Source: Verrucomicrobiota bacterium (GTDB lineage: Bacteria > Verrucomicrobiota > Verrucomicrobiia > Chthoniobacterales > UBA10450). Taken from it: 45,051 nucleotides of DNA. Position numbers and translations under genes: made by a program. The notes under the pieces were generated by a model that was not told where the DNA came from, made no database searches, and saw only the letters and a program-made list of their open reading frames with translations. The stretch is taken from positions 1-45,051 of the forward strand of contig QHPD01000008.1 in assembly GCA_003218975.1 (NCBI GenBank). The letters are read 5' to 3'. This document shows, in pieces, positions 2,695 through 11,461 of the stretch. Every line of letters begins with the position of its first letter. Positions within the stretch are counted from its first letter, which is position 1.

Positions 2695-3111
2695 CTATGC
2701 GGTTGTAGCGACTTGTCTGACACCAATCAGTAAAACTGCGGGGCGATGCCAACCCGTGAGCAAAAAATTTGCGATGGGTTTCAGTTTGCGCATGCGAAAC
2801 ACCGCGAACAGCCGGTCCCACCAACTGCTCTTGTTGCGTTTAAAAGTCGCATCGGCGCAGCGAAAGATCACTCGGCGGGTGCGAATATCGATGCAGATCG
2901 TGCGCTTATATGTTTCAAGGAAATGCCAATTACGCCGGTGGAAGCCAACCACGACCTGGGAGGGGTCGCGCGTGGGGAAATCGGCGGTCTTGCCGTGAAG
3001 CGAGCCGCCCTCATAAATAACTTCGAGCGTAGTCAAAACCCTGCGCTCCTCTACATCGTCGGGTTTGAGGAATTTATCTGGGAACCGGACCTCAATCGCC
3101 GCAACTGACAT
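2695..3111 (-). CDS. Hypothetical protein, 138 aa
   Basis: It starts at an ATG (3109-3111) preceded by AAGGAAA. The first 95 residues look like a folded soluble domain: MSVAAIEVRFPDKFLKPDDV, then TTLEVIYEGGSLHGKTADFP, then RTICIDIRTRRVIFRCADAT. The last 40 residues are basic and aromatic (SSWWDRLFAVFRMRKLKPIA) and may be a frameshifted or acquired end. No family is recognised. It lies in the repeat-rich accessory zone. Confidence 0.45.
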   Translation of the reverse strand: MSVAAIEVRFPDKFLKPDDVEERRVLTTLEVIYEGGSLHGKTADFPTRDPSQVVVGFHRRNWHFLETYKRTICIDIRTRRVIFRCADATFKRNKSSWWDRLFAVFRMRKLKPIANFLLTGWHRPAVLLIGVRQVATTA

Positions 3112-3342
3112 GGTAAATTTCCTTCATTCGGATACAGCCTCCGGTTGGGGCCGCAACTCGGCTCTTCGTTACTTGGGTTTTATTAGGCGAAAAGTCTACG
3201 AACAATAATCAGGCAGTCTATAGGACTTTAGTCGTATCCCTTGTTGCAGGCGCGATGCACGCTCTACCGTGCGTTTGACCCCCGATAACAGCCAACATCC
3301 TCTGAACGGTCGAGAATCAATTTCATCGCTTCGCCGTCGAGT

Positions 3343-3500
3343 GATGCCGTGATTCGCGTTTATGATGACGCAGGCAACGTGATCGAGACGCACGAGCACA
3401 CCGGGGAGTTCAAGGAGTGGAAGCGCAATTTTGTTCGCGCGGTCGAGCGGCCCGTCTGCTTTGTGCTCGGCAGCTCTTACTGATTGTTCAGGACCGTTTG
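3343..3500. pseudogene. Decayed duplicate of the 2112-2300 segment
   Basis: On the plus strand 3343-3420 encodes DAVIRVYDDAGNVIETHEHT followed by GEFKEW, closely matching the end of the gene at 1829-2191. On the minus strand 3477-3500 encodes QTVLNNQ and a stop, matching the tail of the remnant at 2276. The same convergent arrangement occurs at 2112-2300, so this is a degraded duplication of that whole segment. The rest of 3112-3595 shows no gene. Confidence 0.55.
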
Positions 3501-3595
3501 TGCGTGGCGAACTGCATCAATGGAGACAGTGTGCGGACGGAATGGAAAACGGCGTACAACTATACTCAAGCCTGTGACTCTAAAGAGTGAGTTTT

Positions 3596-5134
3596 TTACT
3601 CGCAGCCGTAGCTATCCCTGAGTGCCGATGCGAGCTTAACAAGGCTTTCCCAAATCTGTGTCGGTGTCCAGGCCGCGAAACCGAAGACGAATGCTGGCTT
3701 TAGCTTCGCCTGAATACAAAAGAATGATAACGATGACGGCCTCACTCCAATTTCAAGGGTGACACGCCTGATCATTGGGAACTCTTCCTCGCGCTTCAGC
3801 CAGGCGACGACGTTCAATCCGGCTTCCGGAACCTGCAAAGTGAAACGGTCACCAAGCAACTCATTGAATTGTTTGATGAAGAAGTCTCGCCGCTCGGCAT
3901 AGATTTTTCGCATCCGCTTGATGTTACTCAGGAAAAAGCCCTCGGTGATGAAACGCGCAAGTGTCGCCTGGTCGATCGGAGACGAGTGTTGATCCATCGC
4001 ACTGCGGATCTTGGCCAACGAATCAACCAGCGGCTCTGGCGCAACGATGTATCCCAGACGCAAAGAGGGACAAAGAATCTTGCTCACCGTTCCCGCGTAA
4101 ATCACTCGGCTGGAGTTGTCGATCCCTTGCAACGAAGGGAGTGGTGGCCCGGCAAAGCGGAACTCCGCGTCGTAGTCGTCTTCGAAAATAAAGACGTCGT
4201 GAGCACGCGCAAAATCGAGCAAGCCGGTCCTACGCTGGAAACTCATCGTAACGCCGAGAGGAAATTGATGGGAGGGCGTTACGTAAATGATCCTCGGCAG
4301 TGGTTCTTTTGGCGATCGCGCAATCACGATTCCTTGGTTGTCGAGCAGCTTGGGAACTATCTTAACGCCGGCCAAAGTAAGGACCCTTCGGGTCTGCTGA
4401 TAACTGGGGTCTTCGATCCACGCGACTTCACCCGGATTTAGTACAGCCATTGCGCTGATCAGCATCGCCTGCTGCATACCAGCCACGATTACGATCTGAT
4501 CCGGATGACAGCGCACTGCTCTGAAATCGCACAAGTAAGCTGCAATTGCGTTGCGCAGGTCGGCGTCGCCGCGATTCGACGCATAGCGCAACAGGTTGAC
4601 GCCTTTTTTCGCCAGAACCTGCGCTCTGAGGCGTTCCCACACAGCCATCGGAAATTCATCGACTGCGGGAATGCTCGCGACCAGCGAGACGCCTGCTCCT
4701 GCGCCCGTTGCCCCGAGGTCAAACTGACTTCCGACGCGTCCATCCGGAATTGCTCTCGCGCGATCGGAGATGCGAATTGGGCGCTGGATTGGTTGGTAGG
4801 TCTTCGGTTGGTCCGCGGTCAAAAAGGTTTCCGGGAGAAGGTTCGCAACGAATGTTCCGGACTTGGGCTTTGAGCGAAGATAACCTTCAGCATGAAGTTT
4901 TGAAAATGCGAGTGTAACAGTCGATCTTGAGATTCCCAGGTCTATAGCCAGAGCCCGAGACGAGGGAAGTCGAGATGAACTATCGCTGAACCTGCCCGAT
5001 TTCAGCTCGTCCCGAATTTGGCGGTAAAGCTGCTGATGGAGCGGTTCCGTTGCCGTCCGGTCGAGGCGAATCATCTCAAATGCTATAATCGAACGCCGGC
5101 GCCGCTTCTGCGGGCGCGATTTCCTATTAGACAT
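3596..5134 (-). CDS. MocR/PdxR-family regulator: GntR DNA-binding domain fused to PLP aminotransferase
   Basis: The protein has 512 residues from the first ATG. An internal ATG at 5074 (MIRLDRTATEPLHQQLYRQI) is the more natural family start; the first 20 residues are an Arg/Lys-rich extension. Residues 25-100 are a winged-helix GntR domain (SRLPSSRALAIDLGISRSTV). Residues 140-510 are a fold-type I aminotransferase domain with the EDDYD motif (318-322) and the PLP-binding lysine in TVSKILCPSLRLGY (K352). Such regulators sense PLP or an amino compound and control vitamin B6 or amino-acid genes. No pdx gene is adjacent, so the target is unknown. Codon 1 faces a 400-base gene-free region that may hold its operator. 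Confidence 0.9.
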   Translation of the reverse strand: MSNRKSRPQKRRRRSIIAFEMIRLDRTATEPLHQQLYRQIRDELKSGRFSDSSSRLPSSRALAIDLGISRSTVTLAFSKLHAEGYLRSKPKSGTFVANLLPETFLTADQPKTYQPIQRPIRISDRARAIPDGRVGSQFDLGATGAGAGVSLVASIPAVDEFPMAVWERLRAQVLAKKGVNLLRYASNRGDADLRNAIAAYLCDFRAVRCHPDQIVIVAGMQQAMLISAMAVLNPGEVAWIEDPSYQQTRRVLTLAGVKIVPKLLDNQGIVIARSPKEPLPRIIYVTPSHQFPLGVTMSFQRRTGLLDFARAHDVFIFEDDYDAEFRFAGPPLPSLQGIDNSSRVIYAGTVSKILCPSLRLGYIVAPEPLVDSLAKIRSAMDQHSSPIDQATLARFITEGFFLSNIKRMRKIYAERRDFFIKQFNELLGDRFTLQVPEAGLNVVAWLKREEEFPMIRRVTLEIGVRPSSLSFFCIQAKLKPAFVFGFAAWTPTQIWESLVKLASALRDSYGCE

Positions 5135-5535
5135 GCCAACTGCCCTCGTTTCCTGCTGATCACTCTTCCATTTGCGGGTGTACTCTCAAGAGCCGAGGCA
5201 TAGGCGCCGGAAAGTGGGGGAGAATTGGGATGAAAAAAGAATTGTTTCTGCGAGTGCTGGTTCTGAGGGGTACCCACCCCACGAGGGTTGTGACCCACAA
5301 ATCGGACAATGCATGAATGAGGTTTGTGGTTTTGAAAGCGTCGAGCTCGATCCACCTCGCCCATCGATGCCCGAGCGATCATCTCGCGGACACGACGCAA
5401 GGTTCGTTAGCAATAAACCGGTTAGGGCCGAATCGTGCTTCGGGCGAAGTCAAACTGGACTGTGGCAAAGACACGAACTGGCTCTTGTTCGATCCAAAGG
5501 AGCTCCAGAGATTTGGTCATCAAAAAGGAGGCATT
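5135..5535. other. Gene-free spacer between the MocR regulator and a small exported protein
   Basis: No convincing coding frame on either strand. It carries the divergent upstream regions of the MocR gene and the gene at 5536. MocR regulators usually bind direct repeats near their own promoter, but I could not pick out a clear pair here by eye. Confidence 0.4.
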
Positions 5536-5886
5536 ATGAAAAAAACAATTCTCACTCTCGCCTGCTTGCTGGTTGCGCCACTGGCATTTGCCCAGACGGG
5601 TTCGACGCATAAGAGACAAACAACAACTGCGATAGAACAACCAATAACGGTAACTGCACCGATCATCACAACGACTGAGGAAGGGTCGGCGGCGATTTAC
5701 CAGCCGTTCAAAACTCTCGTTGTTAGCAAGGATACTCCGGGCAGTTATGTTCTCAACGGGCCCGGTCACGTTGTAAACAACTACGGCGAAGTGATCCGAA
5801 CCGCGATCAAACCCGGCACTCACGTGCGTGTTTATTATGTAAACACAGGCGGTTTACGTATGGTTGATCACGTCGTTGTCGATTGA
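5536..5886 (+). CDS. Small secreted protein, 116 aa, unknown function
   Basis: A strong AAAGGAGG ribosome binding site lies just before the ATG at 5536, which fixes the start; the frame runs open further upstream but without support. Residues 1-20 (MKKTILTLACLLVAPLAFAQ) are a classic Sec signal peptide. The mature protein has a Thr/Ile-rich linker, then a small beta-rich domain: GSAAIYQPFKTLVVSKDTPG, SYVLNGPGHVVNNYGEVI and GTHVRVYYVNTGG. It looks periplasmic or surface located. No family name is recognised. A terminator follows. Confidence 0.75.
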   Translation: MKKTILTLACLLVAPLAFAQTGSTHKRQTTTAIEQPITVTAPIITTTEEGSAAIYQPFKTLVVSKDTPGSYVLNGPGHVVNNYGEVIRTAIKPGTHVRVYYVNTGGLRMVDHVVVD

Positions 5887-5887
5887 G

Positions 5888-5951
5888 CCCGTGCGGCCTG
5901 GGACATCACCAAAAAAAGCCGCACGGCTTCCACAAACCGCACGGCTTTTTG
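5888..5951 (+). terminator. Rho-independent terminator region
   Basis: Three related arms lie here: CGTGCGGC (5890-5897), GCCGCACG (5918-5925) and a final CCGCACGGCTTTTT. The first two pair perfectly. An outer pairing of AAAAAGCCG with CGGCTTTTT is also possible. The closing T run suits termination of the gene at 5536. Confidence 0.6.
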
Positions 5952-5971
5952 CCCCTCAATAACGACTACTC

Positions 5972-6094
5972 CTAGTACATCGTAAACTGCTTGATAATCA
6001 TGTCGGCCAGCCGCGCACGGTGCAGTTTGTAGAAGAGATGCAGCCGTTGATCGATCACGAGCTCGATACGACGCGAGCCAACCTTATCGATTAG
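5972..6094 (-). pseudogene. Possible C-terminal gene remnant
   Basis: A minus-strand frame ending in TAG at 5972-5974 reads VGSRRIELVIDQRLHLFYKL then HRARLADMIIKQFTMY. Composition and hydrophobic spacing look like real protein, but there is no start and no recognisable family, and the next gene begins on the other strand at 6130. It may be a fragment left by deletion. Confidence 0.25.
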
Positions 6095-6129
6095 TGCTTT
6101 CGACAGAGAATTTCGTGAGGACTTTAGCA

Positions 6130-7257
6130 ATGAATACAAACAAATATTTTCGCGCTTGTCTTCTCTTATGTGCGCTGGCTGTTACCTTGCAAATTGGTCA
6201 CTACTTGTCGTCCACAAGTTCAGCTGCGTCGAAAGGAAATTCTGAACAAACGCCCAAGGAGCGGGATGGGCAACACGATTTCGACTTCAACTTTGCCACT
6301 TGGAAGACCCACGTTTCGCGTCTCGTGCATCCACTGACCGGCTCGAAAGAGTGGATTGAATACGATGGGACCTCAGTCGTGAGCAAGGTTTGGAATGGCA
6401 AGGCCAGTCTCTTCGAGTTGAATGTGAGCGGACCCGGCGGCCACATCGAGGGCGTTGGCTTGCGCTTATTCAATCCCGAAACCCACCAATGGAGTCTGAA
6501 TTGGGCGAACAGCAGCGACGGCATACTCAACAAACCGATGATTGGTGAATTCAAGGATGGTCGTGGCGAATTCTTCGACCAGGAGGAGTTCAATGGCCGA
6601 ATGATTCTTGCGCGGAATGGTTTTTCCGAGATTACGCCGAATTCGAGTCGTTTTGAACAAGCATTCTCAGATGATGGAGGCAAGACTTGGGAGACGAATT
6701 GGGTCATGATATTCATGCGTCAGGAACCTTCAGAAGAAAAGATTGCCGCGTCCAAAATAAAGCCTCAACCGACGTCTTCTGAACCTGATCATGCTCAACA
6801 CGATTTCGATTTCCATATCGGTGCCTGGAAAACTCATCTCAAGCGCCGGCTCCATCCATTAACCGGCTCAAATACCTGGGTCGAATATGAGGGCACGACT
6901 GTTGTCAGAAAAGTTTGGGGCGGCCGCGCGAATCTGGTGGAACTCAAGGCCGATGGTCCGCCAGGTCACTTCGAAGGATTGAACCTGCGACTCTATAACC
7001 CCAGGTCTCATCAATGGAGCCTCAATTTCGCTAACGCCAACGACGGCATCTTAACTCAGCCTACGATTGGCGAATTCAAAAACGGTCGCGGCGAGTTTTT
7101 CGATCGGGAGACACTGAATGGGCGAGCGAGTTTTGTTCGCTTCGTTATTTCGGACATCACGCCGACCTCGTGCCGTTTTGAACAATCATTTTCCGACGAC
7201 GGCGGAAAGACTTGGGAAGTAAACTGGATCGCGGTAGACACCCGCGTAAAGAATTGA
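6130..7257 (+). CDS. Secreted protein with two tandem copies of a DUF1579-like domain, 375 aa
   Basis: The ATG at 6130 is chosen because GAGGA lies upstream; an ATG at 6094 would add 12 residues. Residues 1-35 (MNTNKYFRACLLLCALAVTL...) are a signal peptide. Two homologous domains follow. Both open with QHDFDF and a Trp-Lys-Thr-His motif (ATWKTH/GAWKTH), share HPLTGS, VSKVW/VRKVW, HQWSLNxAN, GILxxPxIGEFKxGRGEFFD, and end FSDDGGKTWExNW. A linker of about 20 residues separates them. The motifs resemble the DUF1579/SnoaL-adjacent group of exported proteins of unknown function. The duplication looks old because synonymous positions differ widely. No partner gene is nearby. Confidence 0.8.
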   Translation: MNTNKYFRACLLLCALAVTLQIGHYLSSTSSAASKGNSEQTPKERDGQHDFDFNFATWKTHVSRLVHPLTGSKEWIEYDGTSVVSKVWNGKASLFELNVSGPGGHIEGVGLRLFNPETHQWSLNWANSSDGILNKPMIGEFKDGRGEFFDQEEFNGRMILARNGFSEITPNSSRFEQAFSDDGGKTWETNWVMIFMRQEPSEEKIAASKIKPQPTSSEPDHAQHDFDFHIGAWKTHLKRRLHPLTGSNTWVEYEGTTVVRKVWGGRANLVELKADGPPGHFEGLNLRLYNPRSHQWSLNFANANDGILTQPTIGEFKNGRGEFFDRETLNGRASFVRFVISDITPTSCRFEQSFSDDGGKTWEVNWIAVDTRVKN

Positions 7258-7273
7258 TTTTGGGAGACGACAA

Positions 7274-7326
7274 GACGCAGCTCCAACTCCAACCGGCTTT
7301 GCTGAGATTGTCAGCGATGATTTCTT
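7274..7326 (-). pseudogene. Fragment of the NLSKAGWSW...RADEKLTAF repeat
   Basis: The minus strand encodes EIIADNLSKAGWSWSCV, then the match ends. The DNA is almost identical to the corresponding stretch at about 11417-11459. Only the first part of the repeat is present. The rest of 7258-7518 shows no gene. Confidence 0.6.
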
Positions 7327-7518
7327 TTCCATAGCGATCGATCGGGTATTCATTATTGAGAACCGCTCACGTTTTTAGCTCTTATTTTGGCCACCACGAG
7401 AGCGTCCGCATTCGATTCACTAACAGAGGAGAGACGCGTACTCATTAAGCGTCGAGCAAATGCTTAGCAGGAAGTTCCATTTCCTGCGCCAAAACAACAA
7501 ACAAGGAGGGAAAACTGT

Positions 7519-7770
7519 ATGAAAAAGCTTCTCTTGATTGCATTGGTGGCAAGTGGATTGGCTTTCGTTCCCGTGCAGCGTTCTGACGCGCAGATTTCGG
7601 TCGGAATCGGCTACCCGGCTTACGGATACAGCTATTATCCATACGGATACTACCGGCCCTATCCGTACTATGGCTACTATTACGGGCCTTCGTATTACTG
7701 GTACAACGGGCATCGAGTCTATTATCACCGCCACCACCGTCATCATCATTACTACCACTTTTGGTACTAA
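7519..7770 (+). CDS. Secreted Tyr/Gly/His-rich protein, 83 aa
   Basis: A strong AAGGAGGG ribosome binding site lies upstream. Residues 1-24 (MKKLLLIALVASGLAFVPVQ...) are a signal peptide ending near SDA. The mature part is almost entirely Tyr, Gly, Pro and His: a YPYGYYRPYPYYGYYYGP segment followed by a His/Tyr tail (HRHHRHHHYYHFWY). The histidine cluster could bind metal; the Tyr-rich region could cross-link or form a surface layer. Both are inference. A strong terminator follows, so it is a single-gene unit. Confidence 0.75.
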   Translation: MKKLLLIALVASGLAFVPVQRSDAQISVGIGYPAYGYSYYPYGYYRPYPYYGYYYGPSYYWYNGHRVYYHRHHRHHHYYHFWY

Positions 7771-7797
7771 GTTGACGTAGGATTATTAAATCCACTG

Positions 7798-7834
7798 AGC
7801 TGGCTTGGAGGCGATTTCCAAGCCAGCTTTTTTT
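7798..7834 (+). terminator. Rho-independent terminator
   Basis: AGCTGGCTTGGA (7798-7809) pairs perfectly with TCCAAGCCAGCT (7817-7828), followed by seven T residues. It ends the transcript of the Tyr/His-rich gene. Confidence 0.9.
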
Positions 7835-7862
7835 GCCAGCCAGGCCTACTTCGCATGGCGCA

Positions 7863-8015
7863 AATAGCCAATTCCAGCTCCAGAAACGCCGTCAACTTCT
7901 CATCCGCTCGCACAACGAAACGTTTTCCGTCATCACGATACGCGTCAGCAATGAAGATTGTCCTCCCGCAAGAATCCACGGCTGATACGCAGCCCACGTC
8001 CAACCGGCTGTGATT
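7863..8015 (-). pseudogene. Copy of the VADxHRDDGKRFVVRADEKLTAFLELE repeat
   Basis: The minus strand encodes GCVSAVDSCGRTIFIADAYR then DDGKRFVVRADEKLTAFLEL. The segment before it (NHSRLDV) looks like a decayed NLSKAGWSW. The frame continues into the neighbouring terminator, so the protein end is not original. No ribosome binding site is seen. The rest of 7835-8244 holds no other gene. Confidence 0.55.
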
Positions 8016-8244
8016 CGCAGCCCCAAGGCAAATCACAAGTTCCTGAATAAAGATCAAAAAGAAGCTTGACACGATGATGCGAGATTAAGTAAAAGTATTG
8101 TCGACCGCGCGCCCACCCGACGTTTCAACGAATCTTCAGCCGCCCTGAAGACGTTCGTGGGGTTGGGTCTTCGCTGGGACACCCGTCTGGCGCGATCGCC
8201 TGGATCCAACTGGGCGGGAGAGGTTCAAAAAGGAAAGGTACATT

Positions 8245-11175
8245 ATGTCGCACGTTACGGGAACCGTGCAGCCAGTCTCGCCGGTCCTGAAAATAGGGCC
8301 CGATTTTGGGCCACCTACCAGTCCTAATACCTGGACCGTTAACTTCGCCTACACTCCTGCACCCACAGGGACCAAGTTGGTGATGCTGCATTTCACCGGC
8401 GCGAGTTTCCCCGCAACTAATCGGCTGGAAGTGGATTTGGGCTACGGCGGCGGTGAAATGGATGTATTCACTTCCGCTGATGGCACGGACTTTTGGACGC
8501 GCCCGATTAACGTTTATGCAGTCGGCGCCACGGTCACCATTCGCTATATCACCAACGGAGCGGCTACAGGAGGTGTTCAACTCGACCAATACGGCCGCGG
8601 CGAGCGGCATACCAAGGATCCTGACCCGCCATATGTCGATCCGAAGTTTGACAGCCTGTCCAACTGCGATCCCTTCCTTAACCCATCGGGTTATCAGCAA
8701 CCGGACTTCGCGACATTCTGGTTCTGCAGCAATCTGCCAAACTGGGAAAATACCGCTTGCATCAAGCCGCCCGGCGATATCCGCAACACCGTAGCGCCTG
8801 CCGTCGGAATGATTGTGCACGTGGACGCCAACAAGGTACTCGGGTTCGTTGTGTCCACTTGCAGTGTCACGCTGGTGAGCCCAGACACAATCGTTACCGC
8901 CGGCCACTGCATGACGGATCCGATTGAGGACGCCAAAAGCGCCTCGGTAATCTTCAACTATGCCACCGATTGCAACAACAATGTGCCTAACAATTACAAT
9001 GGGCGGTTCTTCAAGGTCAAGGAAGTCATCCGGCAGCGCTTCGCCGATGGCTCGGCTAACGATTACTGCCTGCTGCGCCTCAAACTGCCACCTGGCGGGC
9101 TCGGCATAACACCCGTTCCCATGCGGGCAGACATTCCTGCCGTCGGAGAGCAGATGTTCGGTATTCACCACCCTAATGGCTCGATAAAGAAGCTCTCGAT
9201 CCCACATCCCGGCTTTGCTACCGTCACTTCCAGCGGGGTTAATGGAATCGGAGTAAACTTGGACGTGTCTGGTGGAAGTTCCGGCTCTGGGCTTTTCGAT
9301 ACGGCAGGACGAATCACCGGCATACTCAGCAGTGGTGTCGCCTGCAGTCTGGGCTATTTCCCGATCGCCACAATGCAGCAGGATGTTGCTAGCCCTCCTG
9401 CAATCACACGCGATGTGATGTTGGTATTCGATCGCTCGGGCAGCATGTCATTGCCGGGAACCAGCGGCCAGCCAAAAATCGAGGAAGCTCGTGCTGCCGC
9501 TTCGCTCTTCGTGCAACTGGTTCATGCCGGCACAGGTAACCGTGTCGGTCTCGTTTCCTTTAGTACTACCCCAAGTTCGCCGGTGGACTTTCCACTGGCC
9601 GATGTCACGGTAGCCAACAAGAACACCTTAATCGGCCCTGCTCCGTTCACTGGAGGAATCGTCGGCGGGCTTATGCCAGGAGGATCGACCACTATTGGCG
9701 GCGGCCTTAATGCGGCGTATGGACAGTTGCCCGCGGGTGGCACCAATCCCCGTAATATCTTGCTGTTCACCGACGGACTGCAGAACACGCCGCCTATGGT
9801 AAATCCCACAGACTCCTTTCCAACTGACATTACCATCGACGCCATCGGTTACGGTACACCGGCCAGCATAGACGGCGCCATGCTTACCACGCTCGCCACC
9901 CAACACCGCGGGCAGTATGTTCTTGCCGACACAAATTTGAAGCTACAGAAATTCTTTGCGCTGGCGTTTGGCAACATCTTTGAAGCGGGATTGCTGATGG
10001 ATCCCGAGTTTGTGCTGGGTAGCGGCCAGACGACAGCAGCGCCGGTCCCCTTCAACGTCTGCGAGGAAGAAATCATCACCATCGTTGTTGGCTGGGATCT
10101 TCGCGATGCAGGATTGCGAATCGAACTGACCACGCCCTCAGGCGCTACTGTGACCAGCGGTTCGCCAGGTGTTCAATCGTCTGCCTCTCGCACATGGACT
10201 TTCCTGCGCGTTCCGTTGCCTCACGCAGGCGAACGCGATGGAACGTGGAAAGTCACCGTTTTCCGCGCGGGTGAGGTGGGTGAGTTTGCAGCGCCACTGC
10301 CCGAGGTGCGCTACTTCGTAACCGTGATCGTGAGCGGAGGCGCAGTTCTACGGCGCACGCCAGATAACGCCAAATACTACACCGGTGATGTCATCAATCC
10401 ACTTGTGGGATTGAGCTATCTCCAGGGAGGATTCCCCCCCAATGCCAAAGTGAAAGTGGCGGTCTCACGGCCCGATGCCAGTGTGGGTAACTTGCTGTCG
10501 CAAGAAAAACTGGGTCCCTCGGTCGTAATCGATGCGGACACGATTCCGCCGCGCCATGCCACGTTGATGGCAATCGAATCGCGCACCGGCAAGCCGGTCG
10601 TGGGCTATACGCAGCACACCTTTGACATGTACGGCGACATCATTCACACCGGGGCCTTCGAAACTGCGGGGCTCTTCGGCAATTCTTTCAAAGATCTGCT
10701 CACCGTCGAAGGGAACTACACTTTCCACTTCCAGGCCAGCTACGGCGATACCTGCACGGCGACGAGAGAACTACTCTGGTCGTTGCACGTGGAGCCCGGC
10801 ATTGATCCTTCAACCACGATTGTGACTACGGACGTCAGCGGAGGAAGGGGAACAATTACGCTGGTGCCGAAAGACAAGTACGGCAATAATCTCGGTCCGG
10901 GCAGAGGAGACGGACTTTCGGTTACCGGTGCGCCCGGGACAATCTTAACAGGGCCAGTCCGTGACAACGGCGACGGCTCCTATACTGCGCCTGTAAACTG
11001 GGATCCGGGCTCCGGTAACAGTCCGGGAGTGATCATTGGCCAACCCAGCCGTCCGCCGGTGGTTCTGCATGACCCCAAGCTGTCTGGGAGGGACCGCTGC
11101 AGGAAATGGAAGCTATTGTTCTGGCTTATGGCGCTGGTAGCGCTAGTTCTATTCCTGCTTTGGCTTTTGAAGTAA
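8245..11175 (+). CDS. Trypsin-like serine protease / VWA domain fusion with C-terminal membrane anchor, 976 aa
   Basis: The ATG at 8245 follows AAAGGAAAGG. Residues 1-120 form a beta-rich domain (TWTVNFAYTPAPTGTKLVML). Residues 185-385 are a chymotrypsin-fold protease with TAGHC (His221), NDYCLLRL (Asp273) and SGGSSGSGLF (Ser346), the V8/Glu-specific style of active site. Residues 390-580 are a VWA domain with an intact MIDAS: DRSGSM (D396, S398, S400), a GGSTTIGGG threonine and FTDG. Beta-sandwich segments follow, then a final transmembrane helix (WKLLFWLMALVALVLFLLWL, about 955-975). There is no N-terminal signal peptide, yet the protease part is rich in cysteines. A cofactor-dependent adhesive protease at the envelope is plausible. 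The topology and substrate are unknown. Neighbours give no clue. Confidence 0.85.
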   Translation: MSHVTGTVQPVSPVLKIGPDFGPPTSPNTWTVNFAYTPAPTGTKLVMLHFTGASFPATNRLEVDLGYGGGEMDVFTSADGTDFWTRPINVYAVGATVTIRYITNGAATGGVQLDQYGRGERHTKDPDPPYVDPKFDSLSNCDPFLNPSGYQQPDFATFWFCSNLPNWENTACIKPPGDIRNTVAPAVGMIVHVDANKVLGFVVSTCSVTLVSPDTIVTAGHCMTDPIEDAKSASVIFNYATDCNNNVPNNYNGRFFKVKEVIRQRFADGSANDYCLLRLKLPPGGLGITPVPMRADIPAVGEQMFGIHHPNGSIKKLSIPHPGFATVTSSGVNGIGVNLDVSGGSSGSGLFDTAGRITGILSSGVACSLGYFPIATMQQDVASPPAITRDVMLVFDRSGSMSLPGTSGQPKIEEARAAASLFVQLVHAGTGNRVGLVSFSTTPSSPVDFPLADVTVANKNTLIGPAPFTGGIVGGLMPGGSTTIGGGLNAAYGQLPAGGTNPRNILLFTDGLQNTPPMVNPTDSFPTDITIDAIGYGTPASIDGAMLTTLATQHRGQYVLADTNLKLQKFFALAFGNIFEAGLLMDPEFVLGSGQTTAAPVPFNVCEEEIITIVVGWDLRDAGLRIELTTPSGATVTSGSPGVQSSASRTWTFLRVPLPHAGERDGTWKVTVFRAGEVGEFAAPLPEVRYFVTVIVSGGAVLRRTPDNAKYYTGDVINPLVGLSYLQGGFPPNAKVKVAVSRPDASVGNLLSQEKLGPSVVIDADTIPPRHATLMAIESRTGKPVVGYTQHTFDMYGDIIHTGAFETAGLFGNSFKDLLTVEGNYTFHFQASYGDTCTATRELLWSLHVEPGIDPSTTIVTTDVSGGRGTITLVPKDKYGNNLGPGRGDGLSVTGAPGTILTGPVRDNGDGSYTAPVNWDPGSGNSPGVIIGQPSRPPVVLHDPKLSGRDRCRKWKLLFWLMALVALVLFLLWLLK

Positions 11176-11207: not shown

Positions 11208-11461
11208 ATGTTATTCAGGACCGCTTTCAAGATCTACCTCGCCCTCAAAGGACTGATTGCAAGCTCTACGGTTGCCCCTCTTCTTCCCGCCTGACTTTCA
11301 AGTTCAAGAAACGCAGTCAGTTTTTCATCCGCCTGCACAACGAAACGCTTGCCGTCGTCGCGATGAGTATCAGCAACGAAGATTGGTTGTCCCGAGAATT
11401 CACGGCTGAGACAGCCCCAACTCCAACCGGCTTTGCTGAGATTGTCAGCGATTATTTCCAA
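11208..11461 (-). pseudogene. Most complete copy of the NLSKAGWSW...RADEKLTAFLELE repeat
   Basis: From an ATG at 11461 the frame gives MEIIADNLSKAGWSWGCLSR, then PIFVADTHRDDGKRFVVQAD and EKLTAFLELES, ending after 75 codons at 11234. Beyond the stop, 11208-11230 still encodes AVLNNI, a decayed form of the QTVLNNQ end seen at 2276 and 3477. This shows that the repeat unit carries both motifs in the same order. It could be a short working gene, but lack of a ribosome binding site and frame damage favour a remnant. The rest of 11176-11565 is empty. Confidence 0.5.

Follow-up and report, generated by a model that had tools for sequence, protein, structure and literature searches.

The gene at 8245-11175 (+) of the window, by which we mean the whole 45,051-nucleotide stretch of Verrucomicrobiota DNA analysed here, opens with ATG and encodes a real and conserved leaderless membrane protein of 976 residues, with a protease head, VWA and beta domains and a C-terminal helix on one chain. 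On profile comparison, a frame that recurs in at least 24 distinct leaderless proteins of bacteria and archaea, with unrelated enzymatic heads, is homologous to its VWA and first beta domain; the protein is a distant relative of that group. Our leading, still tentative, reading is that of a tail-anchored inner-membrane protein with its body toward the cytoplasm and a VWA domain that captures a target for the adjoining protease. The coordinates of all features are given in Table 1.

One full-length orthologue was found, in the genome G022; its product is 84% identical and begins at the same methionine, with 12 in-frame codons upstream. The upstream DNA is conserved as well, and G022 carries AAAGGAGAC at about the position of the ribosome-binding site AAGGAAAGG of the window. 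Over 972 codons the two genes give a dN/dS of 0.096 (dS about 1, near saturation), indicating that the gene is real and has been kept under purifying selection; the lowest value falls in the N-terminal domain. Conservation was judged from this single pair, the sole full-length holders found: the window's own genome and G022 were each time the two positives among 98 relatives, 35 genomes of the genus and 213 of the order. A tblastn search with the protein gave no match in phages and, on plasmids, two matches of the VWA region that led to the leaderless family, and pattern scans of genome_contigs and viral_contigs yielded no relative. The flanks examined around the window gene and its relatives held no conserved neighbour indicating a pathway. 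An antisense open frame of 360 residues (window 8125-9207, -) lies over the first third of the gene and is probably due to chance. An interspersed repeat of ~145 bp occurs at window positions 7868-8014, 11297-11435 and 2560-2644, so that one copy flanks the gene on each side; counting itself, it matches 24 times in the window's genome, most of the others being 75-85% identical.

No signal peptide was found from any in-frame start of the window gene, or from any of the orthologue with its 12 upstream codons included. By our own hydropathy rule, which is not a trained predictor, the first 40 residues reach a top 12-residue value of 0.94 versus 2.52-3.09 in all five signal or anchor controls. In leaderless rows including the window protein and G022, but neither near-copies nor L031 (which has no start), this value stays at or below 1.49 in all 26 tested, and at or below 1.59 once upstream codons are included. 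The missing signal peptide reported in the earlier note is thus borne out, also by the comparison of orthologue N-termini that it had proposed. A mis-assigned start, or an upstream frameshift concealing a signal peptide, is very improbable: we found nothing in its support, both genomes agree on the start, and neither the 32 in-frame codons ahead of the window's ATG nor the 12 in G022 encode a hydrophobic stretch, on which ground a missed start was rejected.

Pfam places Trypsin_2 at residues 209-360 (8.3e-12; Trypsin, 2.3e-11) and VWA_2 at 391-511 (7.2e-10; VWA at 390-570, 4.5e-8), all above curated cut-offs, and the closest solved sequences to the protease, by phmmer, are weak matches (best E 3.3e-4). 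The serine protease triad and the MIDAS, both called intact in the earlier note, are supported by these matches and by the conservation of every one of their residues in G022, and the VWA domain also by fold comparison (best Z 17.8, rmsd 2.7, 156 aligned). The C-terminal anchor it had noted likewise stands: the structure model puts a helix at 949-975, with a maximal 17-residue hydropathy of 2.83. The model has low confidence for the protease head and the N-terminal domain because an alignment was available for the VWA half only, and the Foldseek and VIA matches, all taken up by the VWA domain, barely probe the folds of the other parts. For the N-terminal domain, no homologue beyond the G022 orthologue was found on plasmids or among 288 sampled genomes from the phylum, where the search returned the domain itself and one chance match within an unrelated dehydrogenase-like ORF; on plasmids the protease region gave no match either.

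Table 1. Features of the window gene and its product (positions in the window).
Feature	Position	Strand	Basis
Whole gene, 976 aa, without signal peptide	8245..11175	+	ORF reading, orthologue comparison, hydropathy, dN/dS 0.096
Ribosome-binding site AAGGAAAGG	8230..8238	+	sequence, ahead of ATG
N-terminal beta domain (residues 1-120), the part under strongest constraint	8245..8604	+	dN/dS 0.026
Trypsin-fold serine protease, about residues 186-380	8800..9384	+	Pfam match 209-360
Catalytic His221	8905..8907	+	translation; conserved in G022
Catalytic Asp273	9061..9063	+	translation; conserved in G022
Catalytic Ser346	9280..9282	+	translation; conserved in G022
VWA domain, 388-580; MIDAS D396, S398, S400, T482, D510	9406..9984	+	Pfam, hhalign, fold
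First beta domain after VWA, 581-675, homologous to the leaderless frame	9985..10269	+	hhalign
Second beta domain, 688-855, colinear with the leaderless frame, not significant	10306..10809	+	hhalign probability 6
Third beta region, 856-945, least confident	10810..11079	+	predicted model, pLDDT mostly 35-58
Basic flank RDRCRKWK ahead of the transmembrane helix	11089..11112	+	translation, tail charges
C-terminal transmembrane helix, 957-975, then one Lys	11113..11169	+	hydropathy, predicted helix

Trypsin_2 and S1-type proteases have the fold and the triad in common with the window protein, but usually stand alone or are secreted, without its VWA domain and anchor. Its nearest known build is that of the CLCA proteins (calcium-activated chloride channel regulators), found in animals and with bacterial homologues, in which a protease head is followed by a VWA domain, beta domains and an optional C-terminal anchor. 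Two things are new relative to that build, the trypsin head and the lack of a leader: CLCA proteins are secreted and have HExxH metalloproteases as their heads, whereas the Pfam scan of the window protein gives trypsin and not CLCA_N (PF08434). DUF1973, the CLCA-specific beta domain after the VWA, had no Pfam match in the window protein, nor in L103, a true CLCA of bacterial origin that has a signal peptide (PF08434, 8.9e-25) and matches the profile of the leaderless frame. A profile of the first beta domain matched the window protein but not L103. The frame model (mean pLDDT 81.9) has the VWA domain of CLCA1 as its best fold match (Z 20.6, rmsd 1.9, 150 aligned), tied with 4fx5 (Z 20.2). The accessible part of a 2013 report describes the CLCA architecture with its head replaced by Peptidase_M10 or CHAP in two species (PMC3650047). 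The earlier note knew of no described system with this exact architecture; that claim holds for the trypsin head alone, since the build is that of CLCA and, as far as the accessible part of that report goes, its head had been replaced before. The profile and fold searches it had suggested confirmed the trypsin and VWA domains and, against the same claim, brought out both the CLCA build and a related family of leaderless proteins bearing five other heads. In the literature surveyed, which mostly lay outside subscription journals, we recognised no description of a tail-anchored VWA protease, or of a VWA family headed by tyrosinase, subtilase, M14, M64 or lysyl oxidase.

The weak matches on plasmids and within the order proved to be proteins with other heads on a common frame. 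Its first members, an M14 carboxypeptidase (Caballeronia), a tyrosinase (Haloarcula) and an M64 peptidase (G159), are 31-34% identical to one another over 559-619 aligned residues. A scan of genome_contigs with the frame returned 57 loci, 21 of which (L031-L051) were judged frame carriers; the remaining 36 resemble it through the VWA region and were used as controls only. The alignment A5 has 20 rows, made up of 16 loci from the scan, three from plasmids and one from the same order, and omits the near-copies L037, L044, L047 and L049 as well as the partial L050. A search of 243 genomes from the Calothrix order gave further members in 2, one of them Calothrix itself. In the phylum of L032, 5 of 297 genomes matched; three carry the whole frame, L032's own genome twice, and one of the other two holds a true CLCA. 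Among 387 genomes of the window's phylum the frame matched at 1e-15 in the window's own genome and G534 only, and in phages the frame query gave one partial match.

Besides the two trypsin-headed proteins, the heads of the 24 distinct rows are tyrosinase (13), S8 (4), M14 (3), M64 (3) and lysyl oxidase (1). Pfam scans covered 16 of the 24 rows, and the head of L027 was taken from its annotation; tyrosinase was assigned from the N-termini alone in L039, L040, L042, L043, L045, L046 and L048, and S8 by eye in L031, whose 5' end is cut and whose 75 head residues have no Pfam match. By pattern, catalytic motifs are present in all three M64 heads and in the lysyl oxidase head; the M14 heads show the first motif in three of three and the second in two of three, and the S8 heads the His motif in four of four and the Ser motif in two of four. 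A tree of the frame columns only (24 rows, with L031 and without L050) implies at least nine changes of head type. In L032 (Acidobacteria), neighbouring S8- and M14-headed genes have sister frames (100/100), and the anchored cyanobacterial variants L031 (S8, by eye) and L100 (tyrosinase) are likewise joined at 100/100. Sister frames with different heads indicate that the heads have been swapped.

A small ORF, itself leaderless by inspection, lies upstream of the frame gene in 8 of 13 tyrosinase, 3 of 3 M14 and 3 of 3 M64 rows, most often overlapping or adjoining its start and never more than 71 bases away. These ORFs are alike within each head's set (by alignment; by eye for L100 and L101), and three of them, when scanned, had no Pfam family match above cut-off. 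No such ORF was recognised in the rows with S8 (four), lysyl oxidase (one) or trypsin (two) heads. The L032 pair forms a leaderless tandem, with a subtilase head at 3026-6586, an M14 head at 6973-9882 and the small partner gene between them. The Calothrix frame gene, with its head cut off, lies at L031:5776-7728, and upstream on the opposite strand are nifD- and nifH-like pieces (by eye). The tyrosinase-headed gene at L100:3395-5542 (-) has lost the start of the VWA and the first MIDAS motif and kept the C-terminal helix. At L035:2142-4280, directly upstream of a subtilase-headed frame gene, lies a papain-family peptidase of 712 residues that by eye has no leader.

The window protein aligns with this frame over residues 388-672 (hhalign, 99.7%, E 9.5e-27), and the part after the VWA does so on its own (E 2.9e-7, probability 93). 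The profile of the first beta domain had the window protein as its only match among 475 control ORFs; G022 was not reported there, which counts against the match. The second beta domain aligns colinearly, without significance. The best tree built from the VWA and first beta domain (36 rows) places the window protein and G022 on a long branch outside the leaderless clade (87/96), although their joint clade with the leaderless rows was not rejected (p-AU 0.40). After G022, the closest VWA to that of the window in this tree, again on long branches, belongs to L104:2250-6548 (-), a protein of 1432 residues with an HExxH-like motif. The window protein shares with the frame proteins the missing leader, an enzymatic head and the homologous VWA and first beta domain. 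It differs from them in having its own N-terminal domain, without similarity to the three partner-protein groups of the leaderless family, and no small upstream partner gene; it also has no Cys hairpin like theirs, and their Ig-like domain before the VWA was not seen in the Pfam scan, where the protease abuts the VWA. It is possible, if somewhat doubtful, that all these proteins form an unrecognised prokaryotic VWA-beta platform with interchangeable heads, several with a small upstream partner of their own, made without signal peptides and delivered or used by a common route, in which the window protein would be a trypsin-headed, membrane-anchored branch.

Two known systems were weighed as an alternative home for the window protein. 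The accessible part of a report on vWA-MoxR ternary conflict systems describes fusions of trypsin-like domains to vWA and finds the trypsin domains at that position nearly all inactive (PMC7159879). A vWA component of such a defence system with a trypsin effector domain would share with our protein the presence of both domains on one chain, and PADLOC adds a weak, partial Avs1b protease match (9e-5) and nothing more, on which a defence family was rejected. The MoxR-vWA reading is improbable and was also rejected: Pfam finds no MoxR ATPase among 20 window ORFs scanned, and the triad is intact, in contrast to the nearly all inactive domains in the accessible part of that report; the beta domains and the anchor are further differences. 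Cargoes of contractile injection systems lack signal peptides, which counts in favour of reading the window protein as cargo of an extracellular system of this kind. The marker Pvc16_N (PF14065), however, occurs in 5 of 22 genomes or records with the window protein or its relatives and is absent from the window's own genome (a draft of 165 contigs), from G022 and from G159, and a membrane helix is ill-suited to a cargo. This reading is hardly conceivable; it was rejected for the missing marker and is close to refuted for the window's genome.

The earlier note had framed the choice as one between unusual export and a cytoplasmic tail-anchored protease, and this was the right choice to pose. We infer the membrane side, the proteolytic activity, the role of the VWA domain and any target, and the indications conflict: the missing leader and the tail charges point inside, and the amino-acid composition points outside. 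The protein has the traits of bacterial tail-anchored proteins, namely no leader, one C-terminal helix and a single residue after it. Six Lys/Arg lie in the 12 residues before the helix (five in G022) and one after it, and these ratios of 6:1 and 5:1 are the pattern of a body held inside; G534, a relative with a signal peptide, has two before and three after. Charged residues (K+R+E+D) make up 14.9% of the body; 1 of 67 cytosolic-type ORFs sampled from the same genome has as few, and their mean is 25.4. A weak composition classifier, which in cross-validation called 8 of 67 cytosolic ORFs wrong and 17 of 24 exported ones right, leans toward exported (0.64); its sample came from 20 draft-genome stretches and the window, with ORFs sorted by our hydropathy rule.

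Cysteine content gives export no support. The protein has 11 Cys, eight of them within 141-367. The earlier note had taken the cysteine-rich protease half to suggest an oxidising location; this argument is not supported, since in the same genome exported-type proteins are Cys-poor (mean 0.5%, 24 ORFs, versus 1.5% in 67 cytosolic-type ORFs) and the protease half reaches 3%. Against the inside reading, Cys206 and Cys222 are placed where trypsins carry a disulphide beside the catalytic His, and the heads of the leaderless relatives are enzyme types usually met outside cells. The position outside the leaderless clade, the two-genome distribution and the lack of a conserved neighbour also count against the preferred explanation. 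Export by an undescribed route that needs no classical signal peptide, shared with the leaderless relatives and leading to action at the cell surface like that of CLCA, is rather doubtful. It would fit the exported-type composition, the signal peptides of relatives with the same VWA beyond the leaderless clade (G534, L103) and two Cys in the helical hairpin at the C-terminus of the leaderless frame, each conserved in 17 of 18 rows as expected of a disulphide; the window protein has no such pair. The tail charges, the missing leader and the Cys-rich protease half argue against it, and no transporter gene accompanies the family in the flanks examined. Overall, the body is slightly more likely to be inside than outside. 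An intact MIDAS lets a VWA domain hold its partner by way of a metal ion, and in the cytoplasm-facing, tail-anchored protein that we prefer, the VWA domain would bind a target protein in this way and present it to the adjacent protease head, to be cut at the membrane.

A protease that looks made for the outside and carries no export signal would mean either that the CLCA build is used within the cell or that an export route has yet to be described. The question reaches beyond this gene, as the leaderless relatives occur in many phyla and in haloarchaea and put at least five other enzyme heads on a single frame. Cultured organisms among them (Paenibacillus, Lentzea, Dyadobacter and Haloarcula) make the location of these proteins open to direct test.
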